Below, piece by piece: positions 6,578 through 28,798 of a stretch of DNA of 64,000 nt. The notes under the pieces are model-generated. The model saw only the letters and a program-made list of their open reading frames with translations, had not been told where the DNA came from and searched no databases. Both the position numbers and the translations under genes were made by a program. Every line of letters starts with the position of its first letter. Position 1 is the first letter of the stretch. Source of the DNA: Paramagnetospirillum magnetotacticum MS-1 (lineage in GTDB: Bacteria; Pseudomonadota; Alphaproteobacteria; Rhodospirillales; Magnetospirillaceae); contig NZ_JXSL01000027.1 in assembly GCF_000829825.1 (NCBI RefSeq), positions 186,001-250,000 on the forward strand. Reading direction: 5' to 3'.

Positions 6578-6879
6578 CTGAACTCGAAAAGCGTCTTGAA
6601 GGCCGCGCGCTCGAGTGCCGACGCCACGGGGCCGTTGGCTCTAAGAACCGATACCTTGATGTTCCGGCTCTGCGACGCATCATAGATATGAACGAACAGG
6701 CTCATCCCGGTGGAATCGATGAAGTTCAATTCCCCCAGATCAATCTCCAGCTTGGTCAGGGATTTGATGGATTCCAACTCGGTCAGGATCTTGGGGAATT
6801 GGGGGGCTTCCGCGAAAGTCAGGGAGCCGCTGAGATCAAGCTGTGCAGCGGTTCCGGCGGTTTTCAACGCATATTTCAT
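6574..6879 (-). CDS. STAS-domain anti-sigma factor antagonist (RsbV/SpoIIAA-like)
   Basis: This 101-residue single-domain protein has the STAS fold with the phospho-acceptor Ser56 in FIDSTGMSLF. It is expected to be phosphorylated by the adjacent HATPase kinase and dephosphorylated by the receiver-PP2C protein encoded convergently, forming a partner switch. It lies 19 bases downstream of a chemoreceptor gene on the same strand, so receptor, antagonist and kinase are probably co-transcribed. Alternative roles for such lone STAS proteins include control of diguanylate cyclases or biofilm and motility genes. Confidence 0.87.
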   Translation of the reverse strand: MKYALKTAGTAAQLDLSGSLTFAEAPQFPKILTELESIKSLTKLEIDLGELNFIDSTGMSLFVHIYDASQSRNIKVSVLRANGPVASALERAAFKTLFEFR

Positions 6880-6898
6880 GTGGGGTTCTCTCGATATC

Positions 6899-8587
6899 TT
6901 AGGATGCCCGGATACTGGTCAGGAAGGTGTCCACCCGATCGCGAAGAGTGTTGGCGCGCTCCGCCACATCCTTGGCCGTCCCGAATACCTCGTCGGCGAC
7001 ATGTTCGGTTTGTTCGGCGGCCTGGTTGACACCGAGAATATTCGAACTGACCTCGGCTGTCGCCTGGGCAACCTGTTGCACATTCTCGGCGATCTCTCCG
7101 GTGGCCTGATCCTGCTGGTGGACCGCTTCGGCGATCGCCGAAGACGTCTCCCGGATGCGTTCGATCACCGCGGAAATGGAGCCGATGGCCGTTACCGCAT
7201 CGCCGGTGACCTTCTGGACGGTACTGATCTGGGTGGCGATCTCGTCCGTGGCCCGGGCCGTCTGGTTGGCCAGGGTCTTGACCTCATTGGCCACGACGGC
7301 GAAGCCTTTTCCCGCTTCGCCAGCTCTGGCGGCCTCGATGGTGGCGTTCAAGGCCAGCAGATTGGTCTGAGACGCGATATCGTTGATCAGGGCCACCACG
7401 GCGCCGATCTTGTCTACGGCCTCGGCCAGACTGTTGATCAGGGCGGTGGTGCGGCTGGCCTCGGCCGAGGCGTCGCCAGCCACGCTCACCGAGAGGCTGA
7501 CCCTTTGGCTGATATCCTCGCCAGAGATGGCCAATTGCTCGGCCGATCCCGCCGCCGTGCGCATGTTGACGGCGGTTTCCTCGATGGCCGAGGCCACGGC
7601 CGTAGCCTGGGACGAAGCGCCCTGGGCGGTGTCAGACAGCACCCGCGAGGTGGTTTCCAACTGTTCGGCGGTATTGGCCATGCCCTTGAGGGCTTCGGTC
7701 ACTTCCTCGTTGAATTCCTTCAGCAGATTGTCGACGACGCGGGCACGCTTGTCCTTGGTCCACTCGGCCTGACGCTGCTCTTCGGACAGTTGCTCGGCGC
7801 GGATCAGCCCTTCCTTGAAGATCTCGACGGTTCGCGCCATGTCGCCGACCTCGTCCTTGCGGGTCAGGGCCGGGACATCCATGTGGAATTCCTTGCGCGA
7901 CAATTCGGCCATGACTGAGGAAAGATTGACCAGGGGACGGGTGATGCGCCGCGCCACCAGGAAGGACAGCGCGATGACCAGGGCGGTCAGTGCCAAGACG
8001 CCGCTGCCGAAATACAAGGCGCTGGACCAGAAGGCGGCATCCACGTCGTCTAAATAGACGCCGGTTCCCACTACCCAGCCCCAACCAGAGTTGAGCTTGA
8101 CATAGGAAACCTTGCGGACCGGCTTGGGCGATCCGGGCTTGGGCCAGTCATAGTAATGAAAATCAGCCCCCTTGGCCTTCACCAGTTCGTTCATGCGCAC
8201 GAACAGGGGCTGGCCGCTGGCATCCTTCATTTCATCGACGGCGGTGCCGTCCAGTTCAGGCTTGATGGGGTGCATGACCATGCGCCCCGACAGGTCGTGA
8301 ATCCAGAAATAGTCGCTGCTGCCGTAGCGCAGCGCCGCGATGTCGCGGCGGGCGGCCGCCTTGGCCTCGGCCTCGGGCAGGCGGCCCGCCTTGGCCTCGG
8401 CCTCGTAGGAGGCGATGACGCCAGCGGCGCTGTCTACCAGGTCCTTGACCTTGGCCTTGCGCCCGGAAAGCACCTCGGTGTCGAGCATGTTGAGGGCGCC
8501 GACGAAGATCAGGCACATGCCGAGAAAGGCCGCCGCCACGATCAATGCGATCTTTGTCCCGATTCGCCTGTCATCAAGCCATGTCAT
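6899..8587 (-). CDS. Cache-type methyl-accepting chemotaxis protein
   Basis: With the start set at 8587 (after GGGGGC), the receptor has 562 residues. A membrane segment near residues 10-30 is followed by a single-cache domain with the typical [18 protein letters not shown] and [14 protein letters not shown] stretches, a second membrane segment, HAMP, and a complete signalling hairpin with the conserved [20 protein letters not shown] tip. Single-cache receptors commonly sense small carboxylates, but the ligand is not predictable. An upstream in-frame start at 8647 would add 20 residues of unlikely sequence. The downstream STAS and kinase genes make it the possible input of the partner switch. 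Confidence 0.92.
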
Positions 8588-12345: not shown

Positions 12346-13230
12346 ATGGGTAATGTCGGGACCAAGAAGCCGAGCTTCCAAAGCCTGATCCTCACCTTGC
12401 AGGCTTTCTGGGCCGAGCAGGGCTGCGTCATCCTCCAGCCCTATGACATGGAGGTGGGTGCCGGGACCTTCCATCCCGCCACCACGCTGCGGGCGCTGGG
12501 GCCGGACCATTGGAAATGCGCCTATGTCCAGCCCTCGCGCCGCCCCAAGGACGGCCGTTACGGCGAGAATCCCAACCGGTTGCAGCATTACTACCAGTAT
12601 CAGGTGCTGCTGAAGCCTTCGCCGCCCAATGCCCAGGAACTCTATCTGGAAAGCTTGAAGCGTCTCGGGATCGACCCGCTGGCCCATGATATCCGCTTCG
12701 TCGAGGACGACTGGGAAAGCCCGACTTTGGGTGCCTGGGGCCTGGGCTGGGAAGTGTGGTGCGACGGCATGGAGGTGACCCAGTTCACCTATTTCCAGCA
12801 GGTGGGCGGCATCGAATGCGACCCGGTTGCGGTAGAGCTGACCTACGGCCTTGAGCGTCTGGCCATGTATATCCAGGGCGTGGAGAACGTCTATGACCTG
12901 GACTTCAACGGCGACGGCGTCACCTATGGCGACGTGTTCCTTCAGGCCGAGAGGGAATACTCCGCCCATAATTTCGAGCATGCGGATACCGACATGCTCC
13001 TGCAGCACTTCCTCGACGCCGAGACCGAGTGCAAGAACCTGCTGGACAAGGGCGTGGCGCTGCCCGCCTACGACCAGTGCATCAAGGCGAGCCATCGCTT
13101 CAACCTGCTGGACGCGCGCGGCGTGATCTCGGTCACCGAGCGCCAGGCCTATATCGGCCGCGTCCGTGCCCTGGCCAAGGCCTGCTGTGAAGGCTGGCTG
13201 GCGTCCCGAACCAACAAGGTGGAGGGCTGA
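12346..13230 (+). CDS. glyQ: Glycyl-tRNA synthetase alpha subunit
   Basis: The 294-residue catalytic subunit of the bacterial alpha2beta2 glycyl-tRNA synthetase charges tRNA-Gly. Class II features are evident: [20 protein letters not shown] near the start, [20 protein letters not shown], and [20 protein letters not shown]. The start at ATG 12346 matches the usual family N terminus; an upstream in-frame codon would add 14 unlike residues. It is followed after three bases by glyS, so the two subunits are co-translated. Confidence 0.97.
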
Positions 13231-13233
13231 GCC

Positions 13234-15300
13234 ATGGCCGAGTTCCTGCTTGAAATCTTCTCCGAGGAAATCCCCGCCCGCATGCAGGCGCGCGCCGCCG
13301 ACGATCTGCGCGGTATGGTGACCGATGGTCTGGCCAAGAACGGCATCACCTTCGACGCGGTGCGCTCCTATGTCACGCCGCGTCGTCTGGTGCTGGTGAT
13401 CGAAGGGCTGCCTCTGGCTGGCCCCGACGTGTCGGAAGAAAAGCGCGGGCCCCGTGTCGGCTCTCCCGCCCAGGCCATGGAGGGCTTCCTCAAGTCCACC
13501 GGAATGAGCGTCGAGCAACTTGAACAGCGCGACACCGGCAAGGGCGTGTTCTACTTCGCGGTGATCAACCGCAAGGGCCGCCCCACGGCCGAGGTGCTTT
13601 CCGAGGTGGTCGAGGCCACCATGGCCGCCTTCCCCTGGCCCAAGAGCCAGCGCTGGGGCGCCAATTCCATTCGCTGGGTCCGCCCGATCCAGTCCATCCT
13701 GGCCCTGTTCGAGGGCCATGTGGTGCCTGTGGAATTCGGCCCGGCCAAGTCCGGCGACATGACTTGTGGCCATCGCTTCCTGGCGCCAGAATCCTTCCGG
13801 GTCAAGGACTTCGCCGATTACCTCGCCCGGCTGCGCCACGCCAAGGTGATGCTCGACCCCGTAGAGCGCCGTCACGCTATTCTGTCGGGTGCGGAAGCCC
13901 TGGCGGCGGCTGAAGGCCTGACCTTGAAGGCCGATGACGGATTGCTGGCCGAGGTCACCGGCCTGGTGGAATGGCCGGTTCCCCTGGTGGGCTCTATCGA
14001 CGACAAGTTCATGGATGTGCCGGCCGAGGTGCTGATCACCTCCATGCGCGCTCACCAGAAGTATTTCTCGCTGCTCAAGGCGGACGGCTCCCTGGCCTCG
14101 CGCTTTGTGGTGATCTCCAATATGGAGACGACGGACGGCGGAAGCGCGGTGGTGGCGGGCAATCAGCGCGTGCTGCGCGCGCGGCTGTCCGACGCCAAGT
14201 TCTTCTGGGACACCGACCGCAAGCAGCGTCTGGAGTCTCGCCTGCCCAAGCTGGCCGAGCGCACCTTCTATGCCAGCCTCGGCACCGTGGCCGACAAGGT
14301 GGAACGTATCGCCGGTCTGGCGGGCAACATCGCCGACATGATTGGGGCCGACAAGGCTCTGGCGGAACGGGCCGCAAGGCTGGCCAAGGCCGATCTGTCT
14401 TCCGAACTGGTGGGTGAATTCCCCGAGCTTCAGGGGCTGATGGGCCGCTATTACGCGCTGAACGATGGCGAAAATCCCCTGGTGGCCGACGCCATCGCCG
14501 CCCATTACGCGCCCCAGGGCCCTTCGGATAGCTGCCCGACGGCGCCGGTGTCGGTGGCCGTCGCCCTGGCCGACAAGATCGATTCCCTGGTCGGCTTCTT
14601 TGCCATCAACGAGCGGCCGACCGGGTCCAAGGACCCCTTCGCGCTGCGCCGCGCCGCGCTGGGCATCATCCGTCTGGTGCTGGAGAACGGACTGCGCCTG
14701 CCCCTGTCCCAGGTCATCTTCCTGGCCTCGGGACATTTCAAGGCGACCTTGGTGCAAGCGCCGGGCGAAGTGGCCCGCGACCTGCTGAACTTCTTCGCCG
14801 ACCGGCTGGCGGTGGCGCTGAAGGAGAAGGGGGTGCGCCACGATCTCATCACCGCCATTTTCTCGTTGGGCGGCGAGGATGATCTGGTCCGCCTGTTGAA
14901 GCGGGTGGACGCCCTGGGTGCCTTCCTGGCCTCCGACGACGGCGCCAATCTGCTGATCGCCTATCGCCGCGCCGCCAATATCGTGCGCATCGAGGAGAAG
15001 AAGGACGCGACCCTGTTCACCGGTTCCGCCGATTTGGCCCTGCTGCGCCAGGACGAGGAGAAAGCCCTTGAACTCGCCCTGTCCAAGGTCGGTCAGGAAG
15101 TGAAGAACGCCCTTGCCACCGAGGATTTCGCCGCCGCCATGGCGGCTCTGGCCCGGTTGCGCCGTCCCGTGGACGCTTTCTTCGACAAGGTGACGGTTAA
15201 TGCCGACGAGGCCGACCTGCGGGTCAACCGCCTGAAGCTGCTGGCCATGATCGGTTCGGCCATGGGCGGATTGGCCGACTTCTCGAAGGTCGAGGGGTGA
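13234..15300 (+). CDS. glyS: Glycyl-tRNA synthetase beta subunit
   Basis: The 688-residue beta subunit handles tRNA recognition. The N-terminal stretch [20 protein letters not shown] is the family hallmark; the middle contains [13 protein letters not shown] and the HD-like segment, and the C terminus carries the DALR anticodon-binding region ending in NRLKLLAMI. Length is standard. It begins three bases after glyQ and ends in a terminator before ppdK. Confidence 0.97.
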
Positions 15301-15362
15301 GGCTCGGGGGGGAAAGCGGTACTACCTATTTTCAATCCCTCTGGGACGTAGCATGATGAGAT

Positions 15363-15397
15363 CCGCGTCGTCGAAAGCGGCGCGGTTTTTCCTTTTT
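15363..15397 (+). terminator. Rho-independent terminator of glyQS
   Basis: An 8-bp stem (CCGCGTCG with CGGCGCGG, one G-U pair), a seven-base loop and TTTTTCCTTTTT, 60 bases after the glyS stop. Because it lies only 24 bases before ppdK, it could also act as an attenuator for read-through. Confidence 0.8.
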
Positions 15398-15420
15398 CTG
15401 GATTGGGGACGAGATCAGCC

Positions 15421-18105
<2,685 letters not shown>

Positions 18106-18115
18106 CGGCTTAAGG

Positions 18116-18139
18116 AAAAGGACCCTTCGGGGTCCTTTT
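18116..18139 (+). terminator. Terminator of ppdK with UUCG tetraloop
   Basis: A perfect 10-bp stem, AAAAGGACCC and GGGTCCTTTT, around a TTCG loop, 10 bases after the ppdK stop. The A-rich 5' arm and T-rich 3' arm make it potentially bidirectional. Confidence 0.92.
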
Positions 18140-18213
18140 CTGCTTTCCAGGGCTGGAACCCGGAGCAATACCATACTAAGGTCATCGGCGGTTCCCACGG
18201 GAGGCGCTTGCAT

Positions 18214-18624
18214 ATGACCACGTCCGAAGATGCCGATTTCACCGCCTGGATGTCCCAAAAGGAATTCATGGTTGTGGAAGATGTGAGTTCGGCCCGCATG
18301 CTCGAAGCCAGTCTGCTGCGCGGGCTTGGGGCCAAGAAGGTGACTCCCGCCACCGATGGGGCCGATGCCCTGGCCAAGCTCGACCACGCCGAACAGGTGC
18401 CCGACATCATCATCAGCGACTGGATCATGCCGGATGTGGATGGTCTGGCTTTGCTGGAGGCGGCCAAGGCCAAATATCCCGACGTCAAATTCATCATGCT
18501 GACCGGCAAGACGGATCTGGACGATGTGCGCGTGGCCCGCGGAAAGGGGGTCGACGGCTATATCGCCAAGCCCTTCACCAAGGAAAGTCTGGTGGCGGCC
18601 CTGAAGAAGCTGGTGAAGGGCTGA
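18214..18624 (+). CDS. Single-domain CheY-like response regulator
   Basis: The 136-residue protein is a lone receiver domain: acidic pair in VVEDVSS, phospho-acceptor Asp69 in IISDWIMPDVDG, Thr in MLTGKT and Lys in IAKPF. Without an output domain it should act by protein contact, as CheY does on the flagellar switch, or as a phosphate sink. GGGAGG sits nine bases before ATG 18214; a TTG six bases earlier is less likely. It stands alone between the ppdK terminator and the COG4315 gene, with no che genes nearby, so its kinase cannot be named. Confidence 0.88.
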   Translation: MTTSEDADFTAWMSQKEFMVVEDVSSARMLEASLLRGLGAKKVTPATDGADALAKLDHAEQVPDIIISDWIMPDVDGLALLEAAKAKYPDVKFIMLTGKTDLDDVRVARGKGVDGYIAKPFTKESLVAALKKLVKG

Positions 18625-18709
18625 AATTATTTTTCACCCTGTGGAATAATCCCGACTGCCGCCCGTTCTCTCCCATATGGCCCATGTGGAGCCACACTCG
18701 GAGGGAACC

Positions 18710-19084
18710 ATGAATATTCGCAGCCTCACCGTCTTCGCCGCCGCGCTCGTCATCAGCTCGGCCGCCCTGGCCGCTCCGGTCAAGCAGGGTCAGTCTTCTC
18801 TGGGCGCCGTGCTCACCGATGAGAAGGGCATGACCCTTTACACCTTCGACAAGGATGCGCCCGGCATGTCCGCCTGTGTGGATGCCTGCGCCCAGAACTG
18901 GCCGCCGCTGATGGCCGCTGGCGGGGCCATGGCCGAGGGCGATTACACGGTGATCAAGCGGGCCGATGGTTCCATGCAATGGGCCTATAAGGGCAAGCCG
19001 CTCTACACCTGGGCCAAGGATGCCAAGCCGGGCGATACCACCGGCGAAGGCTTCAAGGATATTTGGCACGCCGCCAAGCCGTAG
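18710..19084 (+). CDS. Secreted COG4315 (Lipoprotein_15 repeat) protein
   Basis: A signal peptide (residues 1-20, ending AALAAP) precedes about 105 residues containing two copies of the Yx(F/W)xxD repeat: LYTFDKDAPGMSACVDAC and LYTWAKDAKPGD, each followed by a W/N-rich strand. The family is widespread and of unknown function; no lipobox Cys is present at the cleavage site, so it should be periplasmic or secreted and not lipidated. It lies 14 bases before an ECF sigma gene, so it may be a target or sensor partner of that regulator. GGAGGG precedes the ATG at 18710. Confidence 0.83.
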   Translation: MNIRSLTVFAAALVISSAALAAPVKQGQSSLGAVLTDEKGMTLYTFDKDAPGMSACVDACAQNWPPLMAAGGAMAEGDYTVIKRADGSMQWAYKGKPLYTWAKDAKPGDTTGEGFKDIWHAAKP

Positions 19085-19098
19085 CCATATAAGCTTGC

Positions 19099-19605
19099 AT
19101 GAGCAAGATAGAGAGCCAGATCGAAGCGGAAATCCCCGGATTGCGGCGCTATGCCCGCGCCCTGTCCGGGGATGTCTCCCAGGCCGACGACCTCGTCCAG
19201 GATTGCCTGGAACGGGCGCTTTCCCGGCTGACTCTGTGGCGCCGCGACAGCAACTTGCGGGCCTGGCTCTTCACCATCTTGCGTCATGTCTGGATCGACG
19301 AATTGCGGCGGCGAAAGATACGCCCGGAACTCAACGGTATGGATGATGTCATGGACTCTGCCGCGACGGCGCCCAATCAGATGGACCGGCTCGCGGTGCG
19401 CGATCTGGGCGCCGCCTTGGCCCTGCTGGCCCCGGAGCAGCGCGAGGCCGTCCTGCTGGTCGGGCTGGAAGCGATGAGCTATGCCGAAGTGGCCGCGGTT
19501 ACCGGCGTGCCGGTGGGCACCGTGATGTCGCGCTTGAAACGCGGCCGTGACCGTCTGGCCCTGTTGATGCACGGCGGCGAGGCCGCCCTACGGAGAGTGA
19601 AATGA
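19099..19605 (+). CDS. ECF-family RNA polymerase sigma factor
   Basis: The 168-residue protein has only sigma regions 2 and 4. Region 2 includes QADDLVQDCLERAL and NLRAWLFTILRHVWID; region 4 includes LAPEQREAVLLVGLE, the helix-turn-helix SYAEVAAVTGVPVGTVMSRL and RGRDRL. It directs RNA polymerase to a small stress regulon. Its last four bases overlap the start of the anti-sigma gene (ATGA), the usual arrangement for an ECF/anti-sigma pair. The inducing stress is not visible; the upstream COG4315 gene may be in the regulon. Confidence 0.93.
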   Translation: MSKIESQIEAEIPGLRRYARALSGDVSQADDLVQDCLERALSRLTLWRRDSNLRAWLFTILRHVWIDELRRRKIRPELNGMDDVMDSAATAPNQMDRLAVRDLGAALALLAPEQREAVLLVGLEAMSYAEVAAVTGVPVGTVMSRLKRGRDRLALLMHGGEAALRRVK

Positions 19606-20363
19606 GCGCCCCGGTTTCCGACGACGACCTGCTGTCCTACGTGGATGGCGTCCTTGCCCCCGAACGGGTGGCCGAGGTGGAGTCGTGGCTGGAGACCAAT
19701 CCCCGTGACGCCGAACGGGTGCGCCAGTGGCGCGAGCAGATGGACGGCCTGCACCGCCTGTTCGACCCGGTACTGGACGAGACCGTGCCCGACCATCTCA
19801 GCGTGGCGGCCATCAGGCGCCGCCGTTCGTCATCCTGGATGATGCCCCTGATCCGTATCGCCGCCATGGTTCTTCTGGTCCTGGCCGGAGGAGTGGGTGG
19901 CTGGTGGTTGCGTGGCGGCACGGGCTCTGCCCAGGCCCCTGGCGCCATGGTCGCCGCCGAGGCCCTGTCCGCTCATGTGGTTTTTGCCGCCGAGATCCGC
20001 CATCCCGTGGAAGTAGGCGCGGGGGAGCGAGCCCATCTGGTGGCCTGGCTGTCCAAGCGCCTGGGGTCGGAGCTGAAGGTTCCCGACCTCTCGGCGGCCG
20101 GATTTTCCCTGGTCGGCGGGCGGTTGCTGCCCGCCGCCTCGGGTCCTGCCGCCCAGTTCATGTACGAGAACGGCGACGGACGCCGGGTGACGCTCTATCT
20201 GCGGCGCAATCCCGAAGGGTCAGAGACGGCGTTCCGGTTCGCCGCCCAAGGCCGGGTGGAGGCCTTCTACTGGCTTGACGGGCCGCTGGGCTATGCCCTG
20301 GCTGGCGATGTGGATCGCGAGCGTCTGATGGAAATGGCCAAGGCCGTCTATCACCAATTATAA
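19602..20363 (+). CDS. Transmembrane anti-sigma factor
   Basis: The 253-residue protein starts with a short anti-sigma domain (DDDLLSYVDGVLAPERVAEV, residues 7-60), which resembles those of RskA/FecR-type regulators and lacks the HxxxCxxC zinc motif. A single membrane helix follows near residues 84-104, then a periplasmic domain of about 150 residues that would sense the signal. It should hold the adjacent ECF sigma factor at the membrane until proteolysis or a ligand releases it. Coupling through the ATGA overlap supports the pairing. Confidence 0.88.
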   Translation: MSAPVSDDDLLSYVDGVLAPERVAEVESWLETNPRDAERVRQWREQMDGLHRLFDPVLDETVPDHLSVAAIRRRRSSSWMMPLIRIAAMVLLVLAGGVGGWWLRGGTGSAQAPGAMVAAEALSAHVVFAAEIRHPVEVGAGERAHLVAWLSKRLGSELKVPDLSAAGFSLVGGRLLPAASGPAAQFMYENGDGRRVTLYLRRNPEGSETAFRFAAQGRVEAFYWLDGPLGYALAGDVDRERLMEMAKAVYHQL

Positions 20364-20523
20364 AACCCCCGCAGACATCAAAATCTCCCGCGAAAAATGG
20401 TGTCCCTTGAGGGCATTGAGTCCGTTCGACTTTACCAAAGTCACGGAGATGAACTTTCCGTAATGAGACCTTCAGGGTCCGGTCGTCCGGAGTTATTTCG
20501 GAAATGCCAAGGGAGTTCGATCG
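20364..20523 (+). promoter_or_regulatory. Leader of the heme-copper/cytochrome b operon with a 15-bp palindrome
   Basis: The 160 bases before the operon must hold its promoter. They contain a perfect inverted repeat GACTTT-ACC-AAAGTC at 20428-20442 and a second short one, TCCGG-TCGT-CCGGA, about 40 bases later. Either could be an operator; neither matches the FNR/Dnr box TTGAT-N4-ATCAA well. AAGGGAG at 20508-20514 is the ribosome site of the first small gene. Confidence 0.4.
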
Positions 20524-20685
20524 ATGTCCAATTCAATCGAAGGCAAGGAGGAGGAGCAGATTCCGGTGATGCAGCGCATCCTGGATAATCCGTTCCTGCT
20601 TCTCTTTATCGGTGTGGTGGTTCCGGCGGTTTCCTACACGATCTGGGGGATCATGGAAGTCGCCCAGTTACCGATAGCCAAGTAA
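20524..20685 (+). CDS. Small single-span membrane protein heading the oxidase-like operon
   Basis: A 53-residue product, MSNSIEGKEEEQIPV at the start, then one hydrophobic helix at about residues 22-46 (NPFLLLFIGVVVPAVSYTIW) and a short polar tail. The ATG follows AAGGGAG at nine bases and the stop is 14 bases before the CuA-subunit gene. Heme-copper oxidases often have one-helix accessory subunits (for example CbaD of ba3 oxidase), so a structural role next to subunits I and II is likely. Sequence identity with a named family was not recognised. It is easily missed by gene callers because of its size. Confidence 0.72.
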   Translation: MSNSIEGKEEEQIPVMQRILDNPFLLLFIGVVVPAVSYTIWGIMEVAQLPIAK

Positions 20686-20699
20686 GGGAGGGATAATAC

Positions 20700-21245
20700 A
20701 TGTCTATTACTCCTCCAGAACAAAAAGTCTGGTTCAACGAGCCCGTCGAGAAGACCGAGGTGATCTGGGTGCTTATCGCACTCACCTGGGCGCTTATCAT
20801 GTTCGCCATGATGCCGCTCTGGCACCTCAAGGGCACCCAGAACATGTCCAACGAAGCCTATCGCATCCAGCCGGATGTGTATCAGGCCCGCGTGGACGCG
20901 TTCGTCGAGAAGTTCAAGGTTGGCGAGGAAGGTCACGCCAAGACCCCGGTGGTTCGTCCCCCGGCCGGTTCCGACGTGTACATGATGGCCCGCCTTTGGG
21001 AATGGTATCCGGTTCTCGAGCTCGAAAAGGGCAAGAGCTACCGCCTGCATCTGTCGTCGCTGGATTGGCAGCATGGGTTCTCCGTGCAGCCCGCCAACAT
21101 CAACCTGCAGGTCCATCCCGGCATCGACGAGGTGGTGACCATCACCCCGACCGATAGCGGCGATTTCGGCATCATCTGCAACGAATATTGCGGTATCGGC
21201 CACCACACCATGCTCGGAAAAATCCGAGTCGTGGCTGGCAAGTAA
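20700..21245 (+). CDS. CuA-containing heme-copper oxidase subunit II (ba3/NOR-like)
   Basis: The 181-residue protein has one N-terminal membrane helix (about residues 22-42) and a periplasmic cupredoxin domain. The binuclear CuA motif is complete: Cys160, Glu162, Cys164, His168 and Met171 in CNEYCGIGHHTM, with the distal His in LDWQHGFS. The single helix and short length match B-family (ba3-like) enzymes, not aa3 subunit II. CuA takes electrons from cytochrome c and passes them to the catalytic subunit encoded 16 bases downstream. A strong ribosome site (GGGAGGG) precedes the ATG. Confidence 0.92.
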   Translation: MSITPPEQKVWFNEPVEKTEVIWVLIALTWALIMFAMMPLWHLKGTQNMSNEAYRIQPDVYQARVDAFVEKFKVGEEGHAKTPVVRPPAGSDVYMMARLWEWYPVLELEKGKSYRLHLSSLDWQHGFSVQPANINLQVHPGIDEVVTITPTDSGDFGIICNEYCGIGHHTMLGKIRVVAGK

Positions 21246-21261: not shown

Positions 21262-22944
21262 ATGGTTGCCAAGCCCATATTTCGAACCTGCGGCTTCACG
21301 GGTCTGAAGATCCATGATGAAGCAGAGAAGCTGATCAAGATCAACGCGGTCACCGCTATCGTGGTGCTGGCCGTCGGCGGTCTGTTCGGCCTTCTCGTCG
21401 CCTTGACCCGCTGGCCGACCGTGCACCTGCTGCCGGCCGACCTGTTCTACCTGGCGCTGACCGCGCACGGTATCGACATCCTGATCGTCTGGTGCATCTT
21501 CTTCGAAGTTGCGCTGATGTACTTCGCCTCTGCCATCTTGCTGCAAAGCCGGCTGGCCACGCCCAAAATGGGCTGGGTGGCGTATGCTCTGATGGTCCTG
21601 GGTGCCGGCATCACCAACTGGAAGGTCCTCGAGGGCAATTCCAGCGTGATGATGACCTCCTACGTGCCCATGCAGGCCGATCCGCTGTTCTATGTGGGTC
21701 TGATCCTGTTCGCCGTGGGTGCCCTGATCGCATGCTTCATCTTCCTCGGTACCCTGGTTGTCGCCAAGGCCGAGAAGACCTATGAAGGGTCGATCCCGCT
21801 GGTCACTTTCGGTGCCTTGACGGCCTGCATCATCGCCATCTACACCATCTCGTCCGGCGCCATCATCTTGATCCCCACCTTCTTGTGGTCGGTCGGGCTG
21901 ATCAGCCACATCGACCCCTTGATGTATAAGGTGGTCTGGTGGGGCATGGGCCACTCGTCGCAGCAGATCAACGTGGCCGCCCATATCGCCGTGTGGTACG
22001 CCATCGCCGCGATCCTGTTCGGGGCCAAGCCGCTGTCCGAGAAGGTCAGCCGCTGTGCCTATCTGACCTACATCTTCTTCCTGCAGATCGCTTCGGCCCA
22101 CCATCTTCTGGTGGAGCCCGGCCTGTCTTCGGCCTTCAAGATCTTCAACACCTCGTATGGCATGTATCTCGCCGTGCTGGGTTCGATGATCCACGGCCTG
22201 ACCGTTCCGGGCTGCATCGAGGCGGCTCAGCGCAAGAAGGGCTTCAATAACGGCCTGTTCGAGTGGCTGCGGAAGGCTCCCTGGGGCAATCCCATCTTCT
22301 CGGGCATGTTCCTGTCCCTGATCCTGTTTGGCTTCCTGGGCGGCATCTCCGGTGTCACCATGGGCGTGGAACAGATCAACATCATGATCCACAACACCAT
22401 CTACGTGCCCGGCCACTTCCACGCGACCGTGGCGGCCGGCACCACGTTGGCCTTCATGGCGATCACCTACTTCCTGGTCCCGGTTCTGTTCGGCCGCGAG
22501 CTGATCCTGCCGGGTCTGGCCAAGCTCCAGCCCTATCTGTTCGGCCTGGGCATGGGGGTGTTCTCCCTGTTCATGATGGGTGCCGGTACGCTGGGCGTGT
22601 CCCGTCGTCACTGGGATATGGCCTTCTCCGACGCTCCGCACGCCTTCGCTCATGCTCCCGCTGCCTTCCTGATGATGGGCATCGTGGGTGTGGCGGCCTG
22701 CGTCGCGGTGGTCGGCGGCGCTCTGTTCGTCCTGGTGATCGTGGGTTCGGTGCTGTTCGGCAAGCCGGTGGTGCATGCCCCGGCCGCTCCGGCTCCGGCT
22801 CCGTCGCCGGTGGCGTCCTATGGCAATGCCGAGCATGTGGCCGTTCCCGGCACCTTCGCTCTGGCGCTGCTCTTCCTGACGGTGTTTGTCTTGTACTACT
22901 TCGTCAACTGGAAGTACCTGGCCAGCACCTGGATCATGAGCTGA
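21262..22944 (+). CDS. Heme-copper oxidoreductase catalytic subunit with Gln in place of the active-site Tyr (putative NO reductase, eNOR-like)
   Basis: This 560-residue polytopic protein (at least 12 helices) has all histidines of the catalytic core: His69 and His387 for the low-spin heme, His385 for the high-spin heme, and His231, His280 and His281 for CuB. In oxygen reductases of the A and B families the helix VI motif is HPxVY, with the Tyr cross-linked to the CuB His; here it reads H231-S-S-Q-Q235. The lack of the Tyr points away from O2 reduction. Loss of that Tyr is typical of NO reductases, and Gln at this place recalls the eNOR family. That family name is from memory. It is paired with a CuA subunit, ctaB and sco. 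An alanine/proline-rich linker near residue 510 precedes the last helix. Confidence 0.85.
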   Translation: MVAKPIFRTCGFTGLKIHDEAEKLIKINAVTAIVVLAVGGLFGLLVALTRWPTVHLLPADLFYLALTAHGIDILIVWCIFFEVALMYFASAILLQSRLATPKMGWVAYALMVLGAGITNWKVLEGNSSVMMTSYVPMQADPLFYVGLILFAVGALIACFIFLGTLVVAKAEKTYEGSIPLVTFGALTACIIAIYTISSGAIILIPTFLWSVGLISHIDPLMYKVVWWGMGHSSQQINVAAHIAVWYAIAAILFGAKPLSEKVSRCAYLTYIFFLQIASAHHLLVEPGLSSAFKIFNTSYGMYLAVLGSMIHGLTVPGCIEAAQRKKGFNNGLFEWLRKAPWGNPIFSGMFLSLILFGFLGGISGVTMGVEQINIMIHNTIYVPGHFHATVAAGTTLAFMAITYFLVPVLFGRELILPGLAKLQPYLFGLGMGVFSLFMMGAGTLGVSRRHWDMAFSDAPHAFAHAPAAFLMMGIVGVAACVAVVGGALFVLVIVGSVLFGKPVVHAPAAPAPAPSPVASYGNAEHVAVPGTFALALLFLTVFVLYYFVNWKYLASTWIMS

Positions 22945-23039: not shown

Positions 23040-23906
23040 ATGGCGGCAAACCTCAAAGTCCTGGCATCGGTGTTCAAGCTGCGTATCGGGGTGTTCTGCG
23101 CCCTGGCCGCCATAGCCGGGGCCCTGGTGACACCCGGTGCCGTTCCGCCAGCCCCCCAGATTTTCGCCGTCGCCCTGGCCGTCCTGCTGTCGGCCGCCGC
23201 GGCTGGTGCCTTCAATCATTATTGGGAGCGCGACATCGATCCCATGATGAACCGCACCCGCAACCGTCCTTTCGCCACCGGACAATACGCCGCCGGTCCG
23301 CTGTGGCCCCTGGGGCTGTTGGCGTTGACCGTCGCCGCCGTGGCCCTGGCCGCCTTCGCCGCCAATGCCTGGGCGGCGCTGCATGTTTTCCTCGGTGCCT
23401 TCGTCTATGGCATCGTCTACACCGTCTGGCTGAAGCGCCGCACCGCCTGGAACATCGTGATCGGCGGATTGTCCGGCAGTTTCGCCGTGCTGGCCGGTGC
23501 CGCCGCCGCACTGCCGGGCTTAAGCCCCCAGTCCCTGATCCTGGCTTTGGTCCTCTTCTTGTGGACGCCGCCCCATTTCTGGAGTCTGGCCACCGCGTTG
23601 AAGGACGATTATGCCGCCGCCGGGATTCCCATGCTGCCGGTGGTGCGCTCGGAATCCGAGACCAACCGGATCATCCTGGCCAACACATTCGCCTTGGTCG
23701 CCTCGTCGCTGCTGCCCGCCTTTTTCGGTGCCGGTCCGCTTTATCTCGGCGCGGCAGCCCTGGGCGGCGGCTGGTTCCTCTACAAGAGCGTGGCCCTGGT
23801 CAGGACTCCGGGGCGAAGCGCGGCCATGGGTAATTTCTTTGCCTCGTTGATCCAGCTGATGCTGCTCTTGACCGCCGTCATGGTGGAGCCGCTGCTGGCT
23901 GGGTAG
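23040..23906 (+). CDS. ctaB: Protoheme IX farnesyltransferase (heme O synthase)
   Basis: The 288-residue UbiA-family membrane enzyme adds a farnesyl group to heme B to make heme O, the precursor of heme A. The prenyl-diphosphate motif NHYWERDIDPMMNRTRNRP (residues about 60-78) and the second Asp-rich loop KDDYAAAGIPMLP are both present, with about nine helices. The ATG at 23040 follows GGTGGGAGCAGG. Its place inside this operon implies that the adjacent heme-copper enzyme carries an O- or A-type heme. The SCO gene begins nine bases after the stop. Confidence 0.92.
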   Translation: MAANLKVLASVFKLRIGVFCALAAIAGALVTPGAVPPAPQIFAVALAVLLSAAAAGAFNHYWERDIDPMMNRTRNRPFATGQYAAGPLWPLGLLALTVAAVALAAFAANAWAALHVFLGAFVYGIVYTVWLKRRTAWNIVIGGLSGSFAVLAGAAAALPGLSPQSLILALVLFLWTPPHFWSLATALKDDYAAAGIPMLPVVRSESETNRIILANTFALVASSLLPAFFGAGPLYLGAAALGGGWFLYKSVALVRTPGRSAAMGNFFASLIQLMLLLTAVMVEPLLAG

Positions 23907-23915
23907 GACTTTGCC

Positions 23916-24731
23916 ATGATGCGCGCAACCGTCCTGATCCTGTCTGCAATCCTGTTGGGTGGGGCCTTCGGCTCCCAAGCGGCGCCCAGCGTTTCCGCCA
24001 CGGCGGAAGAGGCGCTGAAACGGTCGCGTGCCGTCGAGGGCAATGTGGTCGGCTCGCACCAATTGCTGGACCAGGACGGCCAGCCGGTGGACATCACCCG
24101 GTACCGTGGCAAGCCGGTGGTGATCAGCATGATCTACACCGCCTGCGACCATACCTGTCCGGTGACCACCCAGAACGTGGCCCGTGCCGTGGCCGGGGCC
24201 CGCAAGGCGCTGGGCAAGGACAGTTTCCAGGTCCTGTCCATCGGCTTCGACACGGTGCGCGATACGCCCGAAGCCCTGAAGGTCTACGCCAAGCAACAGG
24301 GTATCGACACGGGCGGGTGGAGCTTTCTGGCGGGCAATCCCGCCACCATGGAGGCCCTGGCCGGTGATCTGGGCTTTAGCTGGTATGTGACCTCGCGGGG
24401 CTTCGACCACATCGCACAGACCACGGTGCTGGACGGCCAGGGTCGCATCTACCGTCAGGTCTATGGCGAGAATTTCGAATTGCCGCTGCTGGTCGAACCG
24501 CTCAAGGATCTGGTGCTGGGCCGGGCCGCCGCTTTGACCTCGATTCAGTCCATCAGCGACCGGGTGCGCTTCTTCTGCACCGTCTACGACCCCCATTCCG
24601 ATGCCTACCGCTTCGATTACGGCATCTTTTTCAGCATCGGCTCGGGCTTTCTGGCGGTGCTGACCATCATCTGGATGACCATCCGCATGTGGCGCGACAG
24701 CAAAAGAACGCCGCGCCAGCCGACCGCATGA
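23916..24731 (+). CDS. SCO1/SenC-type copper chaperone with C-terminal membrane helix
   Basis: A signal sequence (residues 1-22) leads into a thioredoxin-fold SCO domain with the copper ligands in CDHTCP (Cys-x3-Cys) and the distal His in GFDHIAQTT. It inserts copper into CuA or CuB sites in the periplasm. Unlike the usual 200-residue SCO proteins, it has a further 60 residues ending in a membrane helix near residues 238-260 and a basic tail. Two CuA subunits are encoded in the operon and could both be clients. The stop overlaps the possible start of the cytochrome b fusion gene as ATGA. Confidence 0.9.
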   Translation: MMRATVLILSAILLGGAFGSQAAPSVSATAEEALKRSRAVEGNVVGSHQLLDQDGQPVDITRYRGKPVVISMIYTACDHTCPVTTQNVARAVAGARKALGKDSFQVLSIGFDTVRDTPEALKVYAKQQGIDTGGWSFLAGNPATMEALAGDLGFSWYVTSRGFDHIAQTTVLDGQGRIYRQVYGENFELPLLVEPLKDLVLGRAAALTSIQSISDRVRFFCTVYDPHSDAYRFDYGIFFSIGSGFLAVLTIIWMTIRMWRDSKRTPRQPTA

Positions 24732-26341
24732 CGGCAAAAAAATGGAAACGAAAAGGAAATATCGCCTTGTCTAATCCAATCAAATCCGCCGTCAGAGCGG
24801 GGCTTTTCCGCCTTGAAAGCGGTTGGGATATGCTGGTCGGGCGCGAGTCCAATCCCATGTACTGCCTGGGCGCCATGTCCTGGTACTTCTTCTGGATCGT
24901 CGGTGCGTCGGGCCTGTACCTGTTCATTCCCTACGACACCAGTGCGGTGCGGGCCTGGAACTCCATCGAATATATCTCGCGCGAGCAATGGTATTGGGGC
25001 GGCCTGATCCGCTCGCTGCACCGCTATGGCTCGGATGCTATGGTGCTGACCATGATGCTGCATCTGGTGCGCGAATGGTGCCTGGACCGCTATCACGGAG
25101 CCCGCTGGTTCGCCTGGTTCACCGGCGTGCCGCTGATCTGGATGGTATTCAGCTCTGGGATCACCGGCTATTGGCTGGTCTGGGACGAACTGGCCCAGTA
25201 TCTGGCCATCGGCACCGCCGAGTGGATGGATTACCTCGGCATTTTTGGCCAAAGCATCGCGCGCAACTTCCTGACGCCCGGCGCGCTCACCGACCGCTTC
25301 TTCACCTTGCTGATCTTCATCCATATCGCGGTGCCGCTGTTCCTCTTGATGGCCATGTGGGTGCATATCCTGCGCATCAACCGGGCCAATACCAATCCGC
25401 CCCGGCCGCTGATCATCGGCTCGTCCATCATGCTGGTGGCGCTGTCGCTGATCCATCCCGCCCAAAGCCATCCGGCAGCCGATCTGGGCAAGGCCATCGG
25501 CGATCTCAATCCCGACTGGTATTTCATGGCGCTCTATCCGCTCTATGATTCCAAGGGGCCATTGGTGACCTGGGCGGTGTCCATCGGAGCCTCCTTGTTC
25601 CTGTCGCTGATGCCGTGGATGGCCTTTCGCCGCAAGCGCCGGGCGGCGGCCGTTGTGACCTCGGAGCTTTGCAATGGCTGCGGCAATTGCGCCTCCGATT
25701 GCCCGTTCGGCGCCGTGGTGCTGCGCCCGCGCAGCGACGGACTGCATTCCAGCCCCAAGCTGGCGGTGATGCAGCCCGATCTGTGCACCAGTTGCGGCAT
25801 GTGCATGGCGTCGTGCAACAAGACCAATCCCTTCCTTCCCCATACGGGCGAGACCCGCCAGACCGCCATTGATATCCCGGACTTCACCTTTGACCTGATG
25901 GTCAAGCGGGTTTCGGCGCGTACCCATGGCCTGGTGGGCAATGGCCGGGTTCTGGTGATCGGTTGCGAGCATGGCGCGGTGCTGGACCATCTCAAGGGAC
26001 CGTCGGTGGGCGTGCTGCCGCTGCATTGCACCGGCATGATGCCGCCTTCGCTGATCGACTATGTCTTCAACAAGGATCTGGCCGACGGCGTACTGGTCAC
26101 CGCCTGCCGCCCCGGCGAGTGCTTCTATCGCCTGGGACCGGAATGGACCGAGCTGCGCATGAATGGCGAGCGGGTGCCGAAACTGCGCGGCGCCGTGCCC
26201 CGCGACCGGGTGCGGCTGTTCTGGGCGGCCAGCACCGAGATCAAGGCCCTTAGGTCCGAACTGGCCGCCTTCCGGGTGGCGCTGGAGGAATTGCCGCCAT
26301 TAGAGCGTCCCCAATCCACCAAGCGGAGGGTGACGGAATGA
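24728..26341 (+). CDS. Cytochrome b / 2[4Fe-4S] ferredoxin / MvhD-like fusion protein
   Basis: Three modules in about 537 residues. First, a cytochrome b/b6-type membrane domain with two bis-His pairs, each separated by 13 residues: His98/His112 and His199/His213, and the quinone-site segment GYWLVWDE. Second, near residues 315-370, two [4Fe-4S] motifs, CNGCGNCASDCP and CTSCGMCMASC. Third, an MvhD-like hydrogenase iron-sulfur domain with Cys in GCEHGA, HCTGMM and CRPGECFY. It should move electrons between quinol and iron-sulfur carriers. ATG 24728 overlaps the SCO stop, but TTG 24767, seven bases after AAGGAA, is an equally good start. It overlaps the next gene as ATGA. Confidence 0.85.
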   Translation: MTAKKWKRKGNIALSNPIKSAVRAGLFRLESGWDMLVGRESNPMYCLGAMSWYFFWIVGASGLYLFIPYDTSAVRAWNSIEYISREQWYWGGLIRSLHRYGSDAMVLTMMLHLVREWCLDRYHGARWFAWFTGVPLIWMVFSSGITGYWLVWDELAQYLAIGTAEWMDYLGIFGQSIARNFLTPGALTDRFFTLLIFIHIAVPLFLLMAMWVHILRINRANTNPPRPLIIGSSIMLVALSLIHPAQSHPAADLGKAIGDLNPDWYFMALYPLYDSKGPLVTWAVSIGASLFLSLMPWMAFRRKRRAAAVVTSELCNGCGNCASDCPFGAVVLRPRSDGLHSSPKLAVMQPDLCTSCGMCMASCNKTNPFLPHTGETRQTAIDIPDFTFDLMVKRVSARTHGLVGNGRVLVIGCEHGAVLDHLKGPSVGVLPLHCTGMMPPSLIDYVFNKDLADGVLVTACRPGECFYRLGPEWTELRMNGERVPKLRGAVPRDRVRLFWAASTEIKALRSELAAFRVALEELPPLERPQSTKRRVTE

Positions 26342-26841
26342 TCAAGCCCCGTTACATCGCCGGTCAGGCCGTGGCCTATACCGCCTTTGCCGTGATGATC
26401 GCCTATTTCGCCTCCAACCCGGTCTATCGCTTGCACCCGCCGGAATCCGCGCTGCTGAAGCTGTCGCTCACCCATGCGGGGCAGAAGATGGGCGAGTGCA
26501 AGGACCGTTCGGCCGAGGAACTGGCCAAGCTGCCGCCCAATATGCGGGCCAAGCAATCTTGCGGGCGCGAGCGCAATGCTGTGACGCTGGAAATGGATAT
26601 CGACGGCGAGAAGGTCTACGCCCATACCGCCAAGCCCGCAGGTCTGTCCGGCGACGGGCGCTCGCGCTTTTACGATTCCCGCGAGATCAAGGCTGGCCGC
26701 CACGTCATCGCCGCCCGCATGCGCGACGGCAATGATCCCAAGGTCTTCGATCAGGTGGCCGAGGTGACGGTCGAGCTTGCGCCGCGCCAGGTTTTCGTGG
26801 TCGATTTCGACGAAGAGAACGGCAGGTTCGAGTTCAAATAA
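26338..26841 (+). CDS. Membrane-anchored protein of unknown function in the respiratory operon
   Basis: The 167-residue protein has one N-terminal membrane helix (about residues 10-27) and a soluble, probably periplasmic domain rich in beta strands, with two Cys (GECKDRS and KQSCGRE) that could form a disulfide or bind metal. I do not recognise the family. It is coupled to the cytochrome b fusion by an ATGA overlap, so it is most likely an accessory or assembly subunit of that complex. The soluble domain ends in the pattern RQVFVVDFDEENGRFEF. Confidence 0.75.
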   Translation: MIKPRYIAGQAVAYTAFAVMIAYFASNPVYRLHPPESALLKLSLTHAGQKMGECKDRSAEELAKLPPNMRAKQSCGRERNAVTLEMDIDGEKVYAHTAKPAGLSGDGRSRFYDSREIKAGRHVIAARMRDGNDPKVFDQVAEVTVELAPRQVFVVDFDEENGRFEFK

Positions 26842-26970: not shown

Positions 26971-28326
26971 ATGGATCACTCCTGGAAGACGGACGGGTTG
27001 TCGGCGGCGCGGCGGACTGAACTGCGCGGCTGGGCCTTGCTGGCGGTGGGCTCGCTGGCCGTTGCCGGGCTTTTGGCCTTGGGCCTGGGCCTGTCGCGCA
27101 CGCCCAAGGTTCAGGACTGGCTGCCCTGGGGGCCGCACTTCTTCTACCGCGCCCTGGTCACCCATGTGGTGCTGTCCTTCGAAGTATGGTTCCTGGCCGC
27201 ATTGGGCGCGCTGTCGGCCATGGCGGCGCCGCCCTGTCCCCACGGAGACCGGCTGGGCAAGGTCGCCGTTCTTCTCGGAAGCCTGGGCGTTCTGCTGTTG
27301 CTGATTCCGGCCCTCGCCGATCAAGGCGAGCCGTCCTTGAACAATTACGTCCCGGTGGTGGGGCACAGGCTGTTCTATATCGGCCTCGGCGTGCATGCCC
27401 TCGGGGTGGCCCTGGCCTGTCTGCGGCTGCTGCCCGTTCTGCGCAGCCATCGGGTGGTGCCCTTCGGCATTGCCTGCGCGGGTCTGGCCTATCTGGCGGC
27501 CCTGGCCTGCTTTGTCATGGCCTGGGCGCTGATCCCGGCTAGGACCGATGCCGATCTGTTCAACGAGCGGGTGTTCTGGGGCGGCGGCCATGTGCTGCAA
27601 CTGGTCAACACCATGATCCTGATGATCGCCTGGCAGGCCCTGTCCGAGCGTCAGTTCGGCACCGGCCCGGTTCCGTCCGGGTTGGGCCGAGCCAGCTTTG
27701 CCGCCCTGGCCCTGTTCGCGGTGGTCTCGCCCTTGATATATATCCTGGGCGGCGACGTATTGGGCCTGGAACACCGGCAGATCTTCACTCGCCTCCTGTG
27801 GGTCGGGCTGCCTTTGCCGCCCCTGGTCATGGGGTTGGGTCTGGCCTGGCAATTGGTCAAGGGGCCGCGCGACTGGCGCTCGCCCGCTTTCCTGTCCCTG
27901 GCCCTGTCGCTGTTCGTATTCGCCATCGGCGGCTTTGCCGGATTCTTTCTGGGCGTGGCCGACACCCGCACGCCGTCCCATTACCACGCTGTCATCGGAG
28001 GCGTTCAACTGGGCCTGATGGGCGTGGTGCTGGTCCATCTGCTGCCCGCCCTGGGGCGCGAGATCGGGACGGGCAGGGGCGTGCGCCTGCAATTCCACCT
28101 CTATGGCTGGGGGCAGTTGGTCCACGCCCTGGGATTCTTTCTGGCGGGTGCCGCTGGTGTGCCGCGCAAGACCACCGGCGTCGACCAGGGCCTCGATACA
28201 ATCTGGAAGAAGGTTTCCATGGGCGTGGTGGGGATGGGAACCGGTCTGGCGGTCCTGGGCGGCGTGATCTTCGTGTGGATGGCCCTGTCGCGATTGCTCA
28301 AGCCGGGGGAGGGCGATCATGCTTAA
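26971..28326 (+). CDS. Divergent heme-copper-oxidase subunit I homologue lacking CuB ligands
   Basis: A 451-residue polytopic membrane protein (about 12 helices) related to the catalytic subunit at 21262. It keeps candidates for the low-spin heme ligands His65 and His339 (in PSHYHAV), the high-spin heme His337, and the helix VI His207 (GGGHVLQL). The helix VII His-His pair that completes the CuB site is missing; the matching stretch reads SPLIYILGG. The CuB position is therefore probably empty and the protein is unlikely to reduce O2 or NO in the normal way. It overlaps a second CuA gene by eight bases. An electron-transfer, sensory or structural role is possible. Confidence 0.8.
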   Translation: MDHSWKTDGLSAARRTELRGWALLAVGSLAVAGLLALGLGLSRTPKVQDWLPWGPHFFYRALVTHVVLSFEVWFLAALGALSAMAAPPCPHGDRLGKVAVLLGSLGVLLLLIPALADQGEPSLNNYVPVVGHRLFYIGLGVHALGVALACLRLLPVLRSHRVVPFGIACAGLAYLAALACFVMAWALIPARTDADLFNERVFWGGGHVLQLVNTMILMIAWQALSERQFGTGPVPSGLGRASFAALALFAVVSPLIYILGGDVLGLEHRQIFTRLLWVGLPLPPLVMGLGLAWQLVKGPRDWRSPAFLSLALSLFVFAIGGFAGFFLGVADTRTPSHYHAVIGGVQLGLMGVVLVHLLPALGREIGTGRGVRLQFHLYGWGQLVHALGFFLAGAAGVPRKTTGVDQGLDTIWKKVSMGVVGMGTGLAVLGGVIFVWMALSRLLKPGEGDHA

Positions 28327-28798
28327 GGGCTTCGCTCCGTTGGCCCTGCTGGCGGCCAGTTTGATTCTGGCGCTGGGCTGGCTGATGGGCCGCACCGGCG
28401 GCATCGACGTGGCTCCCTCGCAAAGCTACAAGGCCGATCTGGCCGAATTCCACGGCCGCCATCTGGCTTTGATGGCCGCCCATGGCACCGGCCAAAGCGT
28501 GGACGGTATCCCGGTGGTGCGTCCGCCCGCAGGCTCTGACATCCCCGTTCTGGCCAAGCGTTGGGAGTTCAGCCCCGCCCTGCAACTGGAACCGGGCAAG
28601 ACCTACCATTTGCATTTGCTGGCCGAGGATGCCGTTCATTCCGCAGCCATCGGCGAGGCCGAGCTATTGTTGAGGCCGGGCGAGGTCCAGGTGGTGGACC
28701 TGACCGCGCCCATGTCGGGCCGGGTTCGCCTCCAATGCGCCGAATATTGCGGCCTGGGGCATACCAAGATGATCGGCAGTATCGAGGTGGCCCCTTAG
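28319..28798 (+). CDS. Second CuA (subunit II-like) protein
   Basis: The 159-residue protein has an N-terminal membrane anchor (residues 5-23) and a cupredoxin domain with an intact CuA motif, Cys140, Glu142, Cys144, His148 and Met151 in CAEYCGLGHTKM, and the distal His in DAVHSAAI. It is a paralogue of the gene at 20700: the stretch VVRPPAGSD is shared. It presumably donates electrons to the subunit I homologue encoded immediately upstream, even though that protein seems to lack CuB. It is the last gene of the operon. Confidence 0.88.
   Translation: MLKGFAPLALLAASLILALGWLMGRTGGIDVAPSQSYKADLAEFHGRHLALMAAHGTGQSVDGIPVVRPPAGSDIPVLAKRWEFSPALQLEPGKTYHLHLLAEDAVHSAAIGEAELLLRPGEVQVVDLTAPMSGRVRLQCAEYCGLGHTKMIGSIEVAP

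Follow-up and report, generated by a model that had tools for sequence, protein, structure and literature searches.

A probable eNOR-type nitric oxide reductase operon in a magnetospirillum, with a conserved cytochrome b/Fe-S/FlpD protein as putative redox partner

The window analysed here is the whole 64,000-nucleotide stretch G000:C27:186001-250000, taken from an assembly of 4.52 Mb. It contains an operon that runs in the order 53-aa peptide, CuA subunit, putative eNOR subunit I, ctaB, sco, cytochrome b/Fe-S/FlpD protein, 167-aa protein, a second heme-copper subunit I (HCO2) and the CuA subunit of HCO2 (Table 1). The CuA subunit, ctaB and sco genes that had been placed beside subunit I in the earlier note are all present on the same strand. 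The CuA subunit lies immediately upstream of subunit I and carries the cupredoxin residues C160/C164/H168/M171, its match to CoxB (TIGR02866, 42.9 bits, E 3.9e-11) staying below the cut-off of 147.7, and at E 0.01 neither Pfam nor NCBIfam matched the 167-aa protein.

Table 1. Features of the operon and its upstream region in window coordinates.
Feature	Coordinates	Strand	Remarks
Palindrome GACTTTACCAAAGTC	20428..20442	.	perfect; candidate operator ~95 bp before first gene
53-aa peptide, first operon gene	20524..20685	+	one likely membrane helix, by eye
Subunit II, membrane-anchored CuA cupredoxin	20700..21245	+	H125, C160, C164, H168, M171; motif CNEYCGIGHHTM
Probable eNOR subunit I	21262..22944	+	ATG start, 560 aa, open ORF; six core His and Q234/Q235
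ctaB/cyoE heme o synthase	23040..23906	+	TIGR01473 290.4 bits, cut-off 210.3; scan began at 23067, start codon at 23040 read by eye
SCO/SenC copper chaperone	23916..24731	+	PF02630 64.4 bits; C-terminal membrane helix by eye
Cytochrome b6-like/2x[4Fe-4S]/MvhD-FlpD fusion, proposed eNOR partner	24728..26341	+	Pfam Cytochrome_B, Fer4, FlpD; scanned from 24689
167-aa protein	26338..26841	+	membrane-anchored by eye
HCO2, second heme-copper subunit I	26971..28326	+	PF00115 55.8 bits
CuA subunit of HCO2	28319..28798	+	motif CAEYCGLGHTKM; CoxB 30.8 bits, E 2e-7, below family cut-off

The palindrome GACTTTACCAAAGTC is exact in seven aligned members of the genus, window included, and degenerate in two rows from other genera of the family, and the overlapping ACTTTACCAAAGTCA has a single exact copy in the genome. 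Near-matches to the palindrome number five in the genome, which is not above the six of a reversed-pattern control; two of the four other near-matches to GACTTTACCAAAGTC (2 mismatches) lie in the nir region (G000:C20:193647-193661 and 198717-198731). Directly upstream of the operon and on the same strand, an ECF-type sigma factor and a membrane anti-sigma factor were recognised by eye (window 19099-20363). Among the 80 named eNOR loci, which are the best-scoring of 561 confirmed and not a random sample, the CuA gene is present in 80, the 53-aa peptide in 77, sco in 77 and ctaB in 46. At L165 of Bradyrhizobium liaoningense (6785-7606 and 14931-19660), a Crp/Fnr-type regulator gene stands upstream of the eNOR operon, and a cytochrome c gene and then, further on, nirS follow it. 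At L208, a hemerythrin-family gene (12529-12933) comes after the eNOR operon on a Defluviimonas plasmid, so the operon can sit on a plasmid.

The product of 21262-22944 matches Pfam COX1 (PF00115, 212.8 bits against a cut-off of 34.8), and the nearest solved sequences are those of the B-family enzymes of Aquifex (7deg) and Thermus (T. thermophilus ba3, 4g71, E 4e-43). Both features from which the earlier note had started were recovered: the six core histidines (H69, H231, H280, H281, H385 and H387) and a Gln in place of the Tyr four residues after H231. This residue, Q235, ends the motif HSSQQ, where B-family O2 reductases have HPxVY with its cross-linked Tyr, and its column holds Tyr in all seven other B-family rows of the alignment. 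The T. thermophilus ba3 and Aquifex rows were taken from solved structures; the other five, from plasmid records, are classed as O2 reductases only by their motif or record name. The ba3 row, 4g71, is titled mutant V236N, and its Asn at the Q234 column is therefore engineered. An Azospirillum match, which yielded no usable frame, was left out of the alignment rows; plasmid matches from Haloarcula, Natrialba, Geobacillus, Methylobacterium and Burkholderia were rejected as eNOR for carrying the Tyr and were used as B-family rows. Nor is a Tyr supplied by another helix in the manner of cbb3, an outcome the earlier note had allowed for. The helix-VII position is occupied by V284 in the window and by S, T or V in four other eNOR rows, and the sequence at the helix-VII His pair is HHLLVE, against HHLHYT in the genome's own cbb3-type (C family) enzyme; Y246 and Y299 are invariant tyrosines elsewhere in subunit I. 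In O2 reductases the Tyr is the electron and proton donor for O-O cleavage, and its loss removes that donor. Gln, given in the earlier note as the eNOR residue, is indeed the published hallmark at this site: the available text of PMC8756737 (section 2.7.1, Table A4) tells eNOR subunit I by Gln at the cross-linked Tyr position and gives Asn for sNOR and CuANOR, Asp for gNOR and Glu for cNOR/qNOR.

In a maximum-likelihood tree of 41 rows, the 17 eNOR rows, including Thermus and Thermomicrobium plasmid proteins, form one clade (100/99), the seven Tyr-bearing B-family rows a separate group (96/93) and the 13 rows of HCO2 another (100/100); long branches lead to the A, C and qNOR rows. The eNOR of Rhodothermus marinus, which has reportedly been purified and biochemically studied, was left out of the tree; it was not among the best 80 loci of the scan. 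The window protein, for which a place inside an O2-reductase clade had been considered as the outcome contrary to NO reduction, falls in the eNOR clade instead, and an AU test rejects forcing it together with the Tyr-bearing B-family rows (p-AU 2.7e-5). eNOR and HCO2 appear as sisters with 93/86 support, a placement that is insecure because the AU test does not reject trees with HCO2 outside B+eNOR (p-AU 0.294). Several other identities were set aside: an O2 reductase, on the Tyr missing at both known positions, the tree and the AU test; a cNOR or qNOR, on Gln rather than Glu at the site and a different clade; and an sNOR, gNOR or CuANOR, on Gln rather than Asn or Asp.

Across 120 related loci collected by tblastn with no motif filter, Q234, Q235, N237, E82 and H311 are invariant (120/120), as are S308, Y246, H377 and the six core His, and residue 314 is T at 108 loci and S at the other 12. 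These 120 loci are not 120 genomes, some genomes having entered twice (L065 and L099, for example, both come from G116, and one contig of 179,960 bases is common to L144 and G009), and the count replaces a motif-filtered one that had missed 3 of 80 loci. The invariance of Q234/Q235 means that the Gln is not a sequencing error or chance. Q234, Q235, N237, E82 and H311 are also common to two Thermus and one Thermomicrobium plasmid eNOR. The Thermus plasmid eNORs (L209 7001-8683 and L212 7001-8686) have Lys (GHFK) at the position of the low-spin heme ligand His387, a column that is His in every other row of the alignment. Closer to the window, eNOR is 89-96% identical in Paramagnetospirillum caucaseum SO-1 (L144), P. 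marisnigri (L146), P. kuznetsovii (L148) and a Phaeospirillum MAG (L150), and the copy in G008 is 98% identical. By position, S308, H311, T314 and Y246 correspond to S309, T312, T315 and Y248 of the ba3 K-channel; their conservation supports a proton path having been kept, pumping being left unshown by sequence, and energy conservation by eNOR is only inferred from these positions.

The genome offers a denitrification context for such an enzyme. Three strong d1-heme matches lie on contig C20, one of which is NirS with cytochrome c and d1 domains, and a NosZ-like gene scores 370.6 bits, under the TIGR04244 cut-off of 625. The four COX1-family genes are eNOR, HCO2, one aa3-like and one cbb3-like, the last two assigned by motif. 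No cNOR was found in the genome with a cNorB query at E up to 1e-8, and no qNOR with a qNorB query at E up to 1e-20; with nirS present and neither enzyme detected, the proposal in the earlier note of an alternative to cNOR in denitrifying magnetospirilla gains support. In the respiratory chain of this organism, the window enzyme most likely provides the NO reductase step after NirS, as far as gene content can tell.

The same association recurs among relatives. In 60 genomes, own included, eNOR occurs in 27 and d1 in 37: both in 26, eNOR only in one (G037), d1 only in 11 and neither in 22 (Fisher p 4.4e-7, ignoring kinship). Within the genus, d1 is present in 13/13 genomes with eNOR and in 0/4 without it. 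When cNOR is taken as a match below E 1e-150 (26/60 genomes, a weak 25% match in G052 being left out) and qNOR as a full-length match (4/60), 31 genomes have neither. Of these, 17 carry d1, 14 of them with eNOR, and of the 14 that lack d1 one has eNOR (p 3.9e-5, ignoring kinship). eNOR is the only NO reductase found in 14 of the 37 d1-bearing genomes, and G047, G052 and G053 have d1 but no recognised NOR. Since cNOR is present as well in 12 of the 27 genomes with eNOR, eNOR cannot be assumed to be the main NO reductase in every case. At the level of loci, a nirS/d1-type gene lies inside 17 of the 80 named eNOR loci, up to 9 kb on each side, the match in L140 being only 26% identical. Among 299 genomes of the phylum, own included, eNOR was found in 29 at E below 1e-60.

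The product of 24728-26341 joins on one chain what are, by profile match, a cytochrome b6 module (21-216), an HdrA-type ferredoxin and an MvhD module (408-518). In 92 rows chosen for full-length match (88 distinct, from 89 sources), the four heme His, which form two H-x13-H pairs as in cytochrome b6/bc (H98/H112 and H199/H213), the eight ferredoxin Cys and the four MvhD-domain Cys are all invariant, which fits electron transfer. At the quinol site cytochrome b has the motif PEWY. The window protein instead has DW[YF], D263-W264 being kept in at least 95% of the 92 rows and the next residue being Y or F in the 53 rows read there, and no Rieske match was obtained in a Pfam scan of eight operon proteins. 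Its AlphaFold model, built like the others without cofactors, has a moderate pLDDT of 78.2, and Foldseek returned MvhD-type subunits and cytochrome b6/bc1 with low whole-chain TMq (0.19-0.37). By analogy with cytochrome b6 and subunit IV, and from a basic RRKRR that follows the final helix, one would expect the Fe-S part on the cytoplasmic side and the DW[YF] loop on the periplasmic side.

This protein follows eNOR closely in distribution. It is encoded in 62 of the 63 loci with more than 5 kb downstream among the 80 named loci, as is the 167-aa protein, L171 (Thioploca) being the exception in both cases. Strong matches occur in 28 of the 60 genomes, namely 27/27 with eNOR and 1/33 others, the latter being G047, which has the protein without eNOR in an assembly that is 82% complete. 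Of ten eNOR loci from the 299-genome sample, six have the gene; none was seen within 3-4 kb after sco in L101 and L102, and the stretches of L103 and L106 end just after sco. It is absent from the Thermus and Thermomicrobium eNOR loci. Because of these absences, and those in L101 and L102, it is a widespread and not a universal companion of eNOR, seen here in Pseudomonadota only. Two cytochrome b/Fe-S-type genes are present in L107, L117, L118, L161, L180, L182, L195 and L196, and in L114 (8054-9627, G007) the gene is in two adjoining pieces in different frames, reflecting sequencing error or decay.

HCO2, which follows in the operon in this genus, retains a predicted heme-copper fold and the heme His: H65, H337 and H339 are invariant in 27 aligned rows, together with H207, Q210 and Y338. 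Of the three CuB His only H207 is left, the helix-VII His-His pair being missing at its column in 27/27 rows; in L176 and L182 an HH dipeptide occurs roughly ten residues later, where the alignment shows no conservation. The predicted fold is that of heme-copper enzymes (pLDDT 84.9), with ba3 as best Foldseek match (TMq 0.77, E 1.2e-9). HCO2 had no match in the plasmid collection, and its profile none among PDB sequences at E 0.01. HCO2-type genes occur in 17 of the 80 named eNOR loci, on no constant strand or side, and the family is present in Alpha-, Beta- and Gammaproteobacteria. A raw tally, which includes some partial matches and counts G050 on the strength of its eNOR alone, gives HCO2 in 47 of the 60 genomes, often where eNOR is absent, so it is not an obligate part of eNOR. 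In L112 (10426-11777, G008) the HCO2 gene is in two adjoining pieces in different frames, again through sequencing error or decay. The protein may have been named in literature beyond our search; lacking CuB, it amounts to a natural experiment on the heme-copper fold without the copper site.

We put at about 0.9 the probability that 21262-22944 encodes the catalytic subunit of eNOR, a two-subunit heme-copper NO reductase on the B-family side, and the NO reductase reading of the earlier note is thus supported by the eNOR-type sequence, the tree and the genome context. Electron entry through CuA, likewise proposed there, agrees with the complete CuA motif of subunit II: electrons would enter at CuA on the periplasmic side and pass to the low-spin heme (H69/H387) and on to the high-spin heme (H385) and CuB (H231, H280, H281), where two NO would be reduced to N2O and water in a pocket presumably reshaped by the Q234/Q235/N237 set. 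The protons would be drawn through a K-type channel, so that turnover would probably be electrogenic. Homology to ba3 (4g71, E 4e-43) and the retention of all metal ligands would suit a B-family oxidase that has degenerated but goes on reducing O2, some other residue replacing the Tyr, and the available text of PMC6431628 calls the enzyme a 'degenerate B family oxidase' whose function awaits biochemistry. With no Tyr at either known position, a separate clade and an association of eNOR with d1 nitrite reductase genes that is greatest where c/qNOR is missing, we consider continued O2 reduction extremely improbable. NO might also be reduced for detoxification or redox balance and not as an energy-conserving respiratory step: the presence of cNOR in 12 of the 27 eNOR genomes makes a second role plausible, and proton pumping is read from sequence only. 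This genome and 14 other eNOR genomes have no strong c/qNOR match, however, the operon carries electron-transfer machinery and the K-channel positions are conserved, all of which makes a purely protective role improbable.

This eNOR probably has the cytochrome b protein as its dedicated redox partner, with electrons passing in either direction, and a transmembrane electron-transfer partner that does not bifurcate is the arrangement we consider likely. Its absence from the Thermus and Thermomicrobium loci and from the fetched stretch of L101 and L102 means that the protein is not needed for the enzyme class, and together with the cytochrome c gene after one Bradyrhizobium operon (L165) this speaks for an eNOR fed only by soluble cytochrome c via CuA, with the cytochrome b protein no partner at all. 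The invariance of its 4 heme His and 12 Cys in 92/92 rows and its presence in 27/27 eNOR genomes against 1/33 others argue otherwise and leave that supply route unlikely, though a serious contender. Highly improbable, in our estimate, is a single membrane assembly with eNOR as the high-potential end of a quinol-oxidising, electron-bifurcating machine. In such an assembly the cytochrome b protein would oxidise quinol at its periplasmic DW[YF] site and send one electron to a CuA domain and NO in place of the Rieske route, while the second would cross via both b hemes to the cytoplasmic 2x[4Fe-4S]-MvhD part, reducing a low-potential carrier. Where present, HCO2, without CuB but with a CuA of its own, would act as an electron-relay or NO-buffering subunit.

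With the eNOR assignment, the gene belongs in all probability to a known, little-studied type of NO reductase, on which its magnetospirillum-like denitrifying host probably relies. Records label eNOR genes 'cbb3-type' or 'b(o/a)3-type cytochrome c oxidase', and NO-reducing capacity is therefore easily missed; NO reduction by eNOR, if true, would be the N2O-making step in such organisms. With the conserved cytochrome b/Fe-S/FlpD protein, the origin of the electrons used by eNOR and a possible tie of NO reduction to cytoplasmic low-potential carriers become testable questions.

The enzyme of magnetospirilla is already in print and is not newly found. The available text of PMC6431628 (2019) describes a 'putative B type (ba3-a1) oxidase present in Magnetospirilli' that lacks the catalytic Tyr, has SCO in its operon and is suspected of NO activity; in that of PMC8879329, ba3-a1 is reported to show NO reductase activity and is renamed eNOR. 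PMC8756737, in the text available, places eNOR in Archaea, Chloroflexi and Proteobacteria, has a cupredoxin subunit II upstream of eNOR in its MAG and lists Thermus eNOR among its entries, under accessions that differ from those in the present tree. As far as these texts go, the published eNOR/ba3-a1 and the window enzyme have in common the Gln or missing Tyr, the six His, the CuA gene upstream and the B-family origin, as well as SCO in the operon and magnetospirilla as hosts, and no difference was found in the catalytic subunit. What the present analysis adds is two leads, the conserved partner protein and the second subunit without CuB: the eNOR literature, in its available text and figures aside, makes no mention of the cytochrome b/Fe-S/FlpD gene, the 167-aa gene or a CuB-less subunit, and our search, which did not extend to the main eNOR paper, found no published description of the partner protein or HCO2. 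T. thermophilus ba3 shares with the window enzyme the CuB and heme ligands and the S308/T314/Y246 channel positions, and differs in having Tyr237 and Thr312 where the window has Gln235 and His311; E82 and N237 are found only in the eNOR rows of the alignment and not in ba3. With cNOR and qNOR the window enzyme would share the proposed reaction, 2 NO to N2O, but they have Glu at the site where it has Gln, it has a CuA subunit instead of a heme c subunit, and it belongs to another clade.
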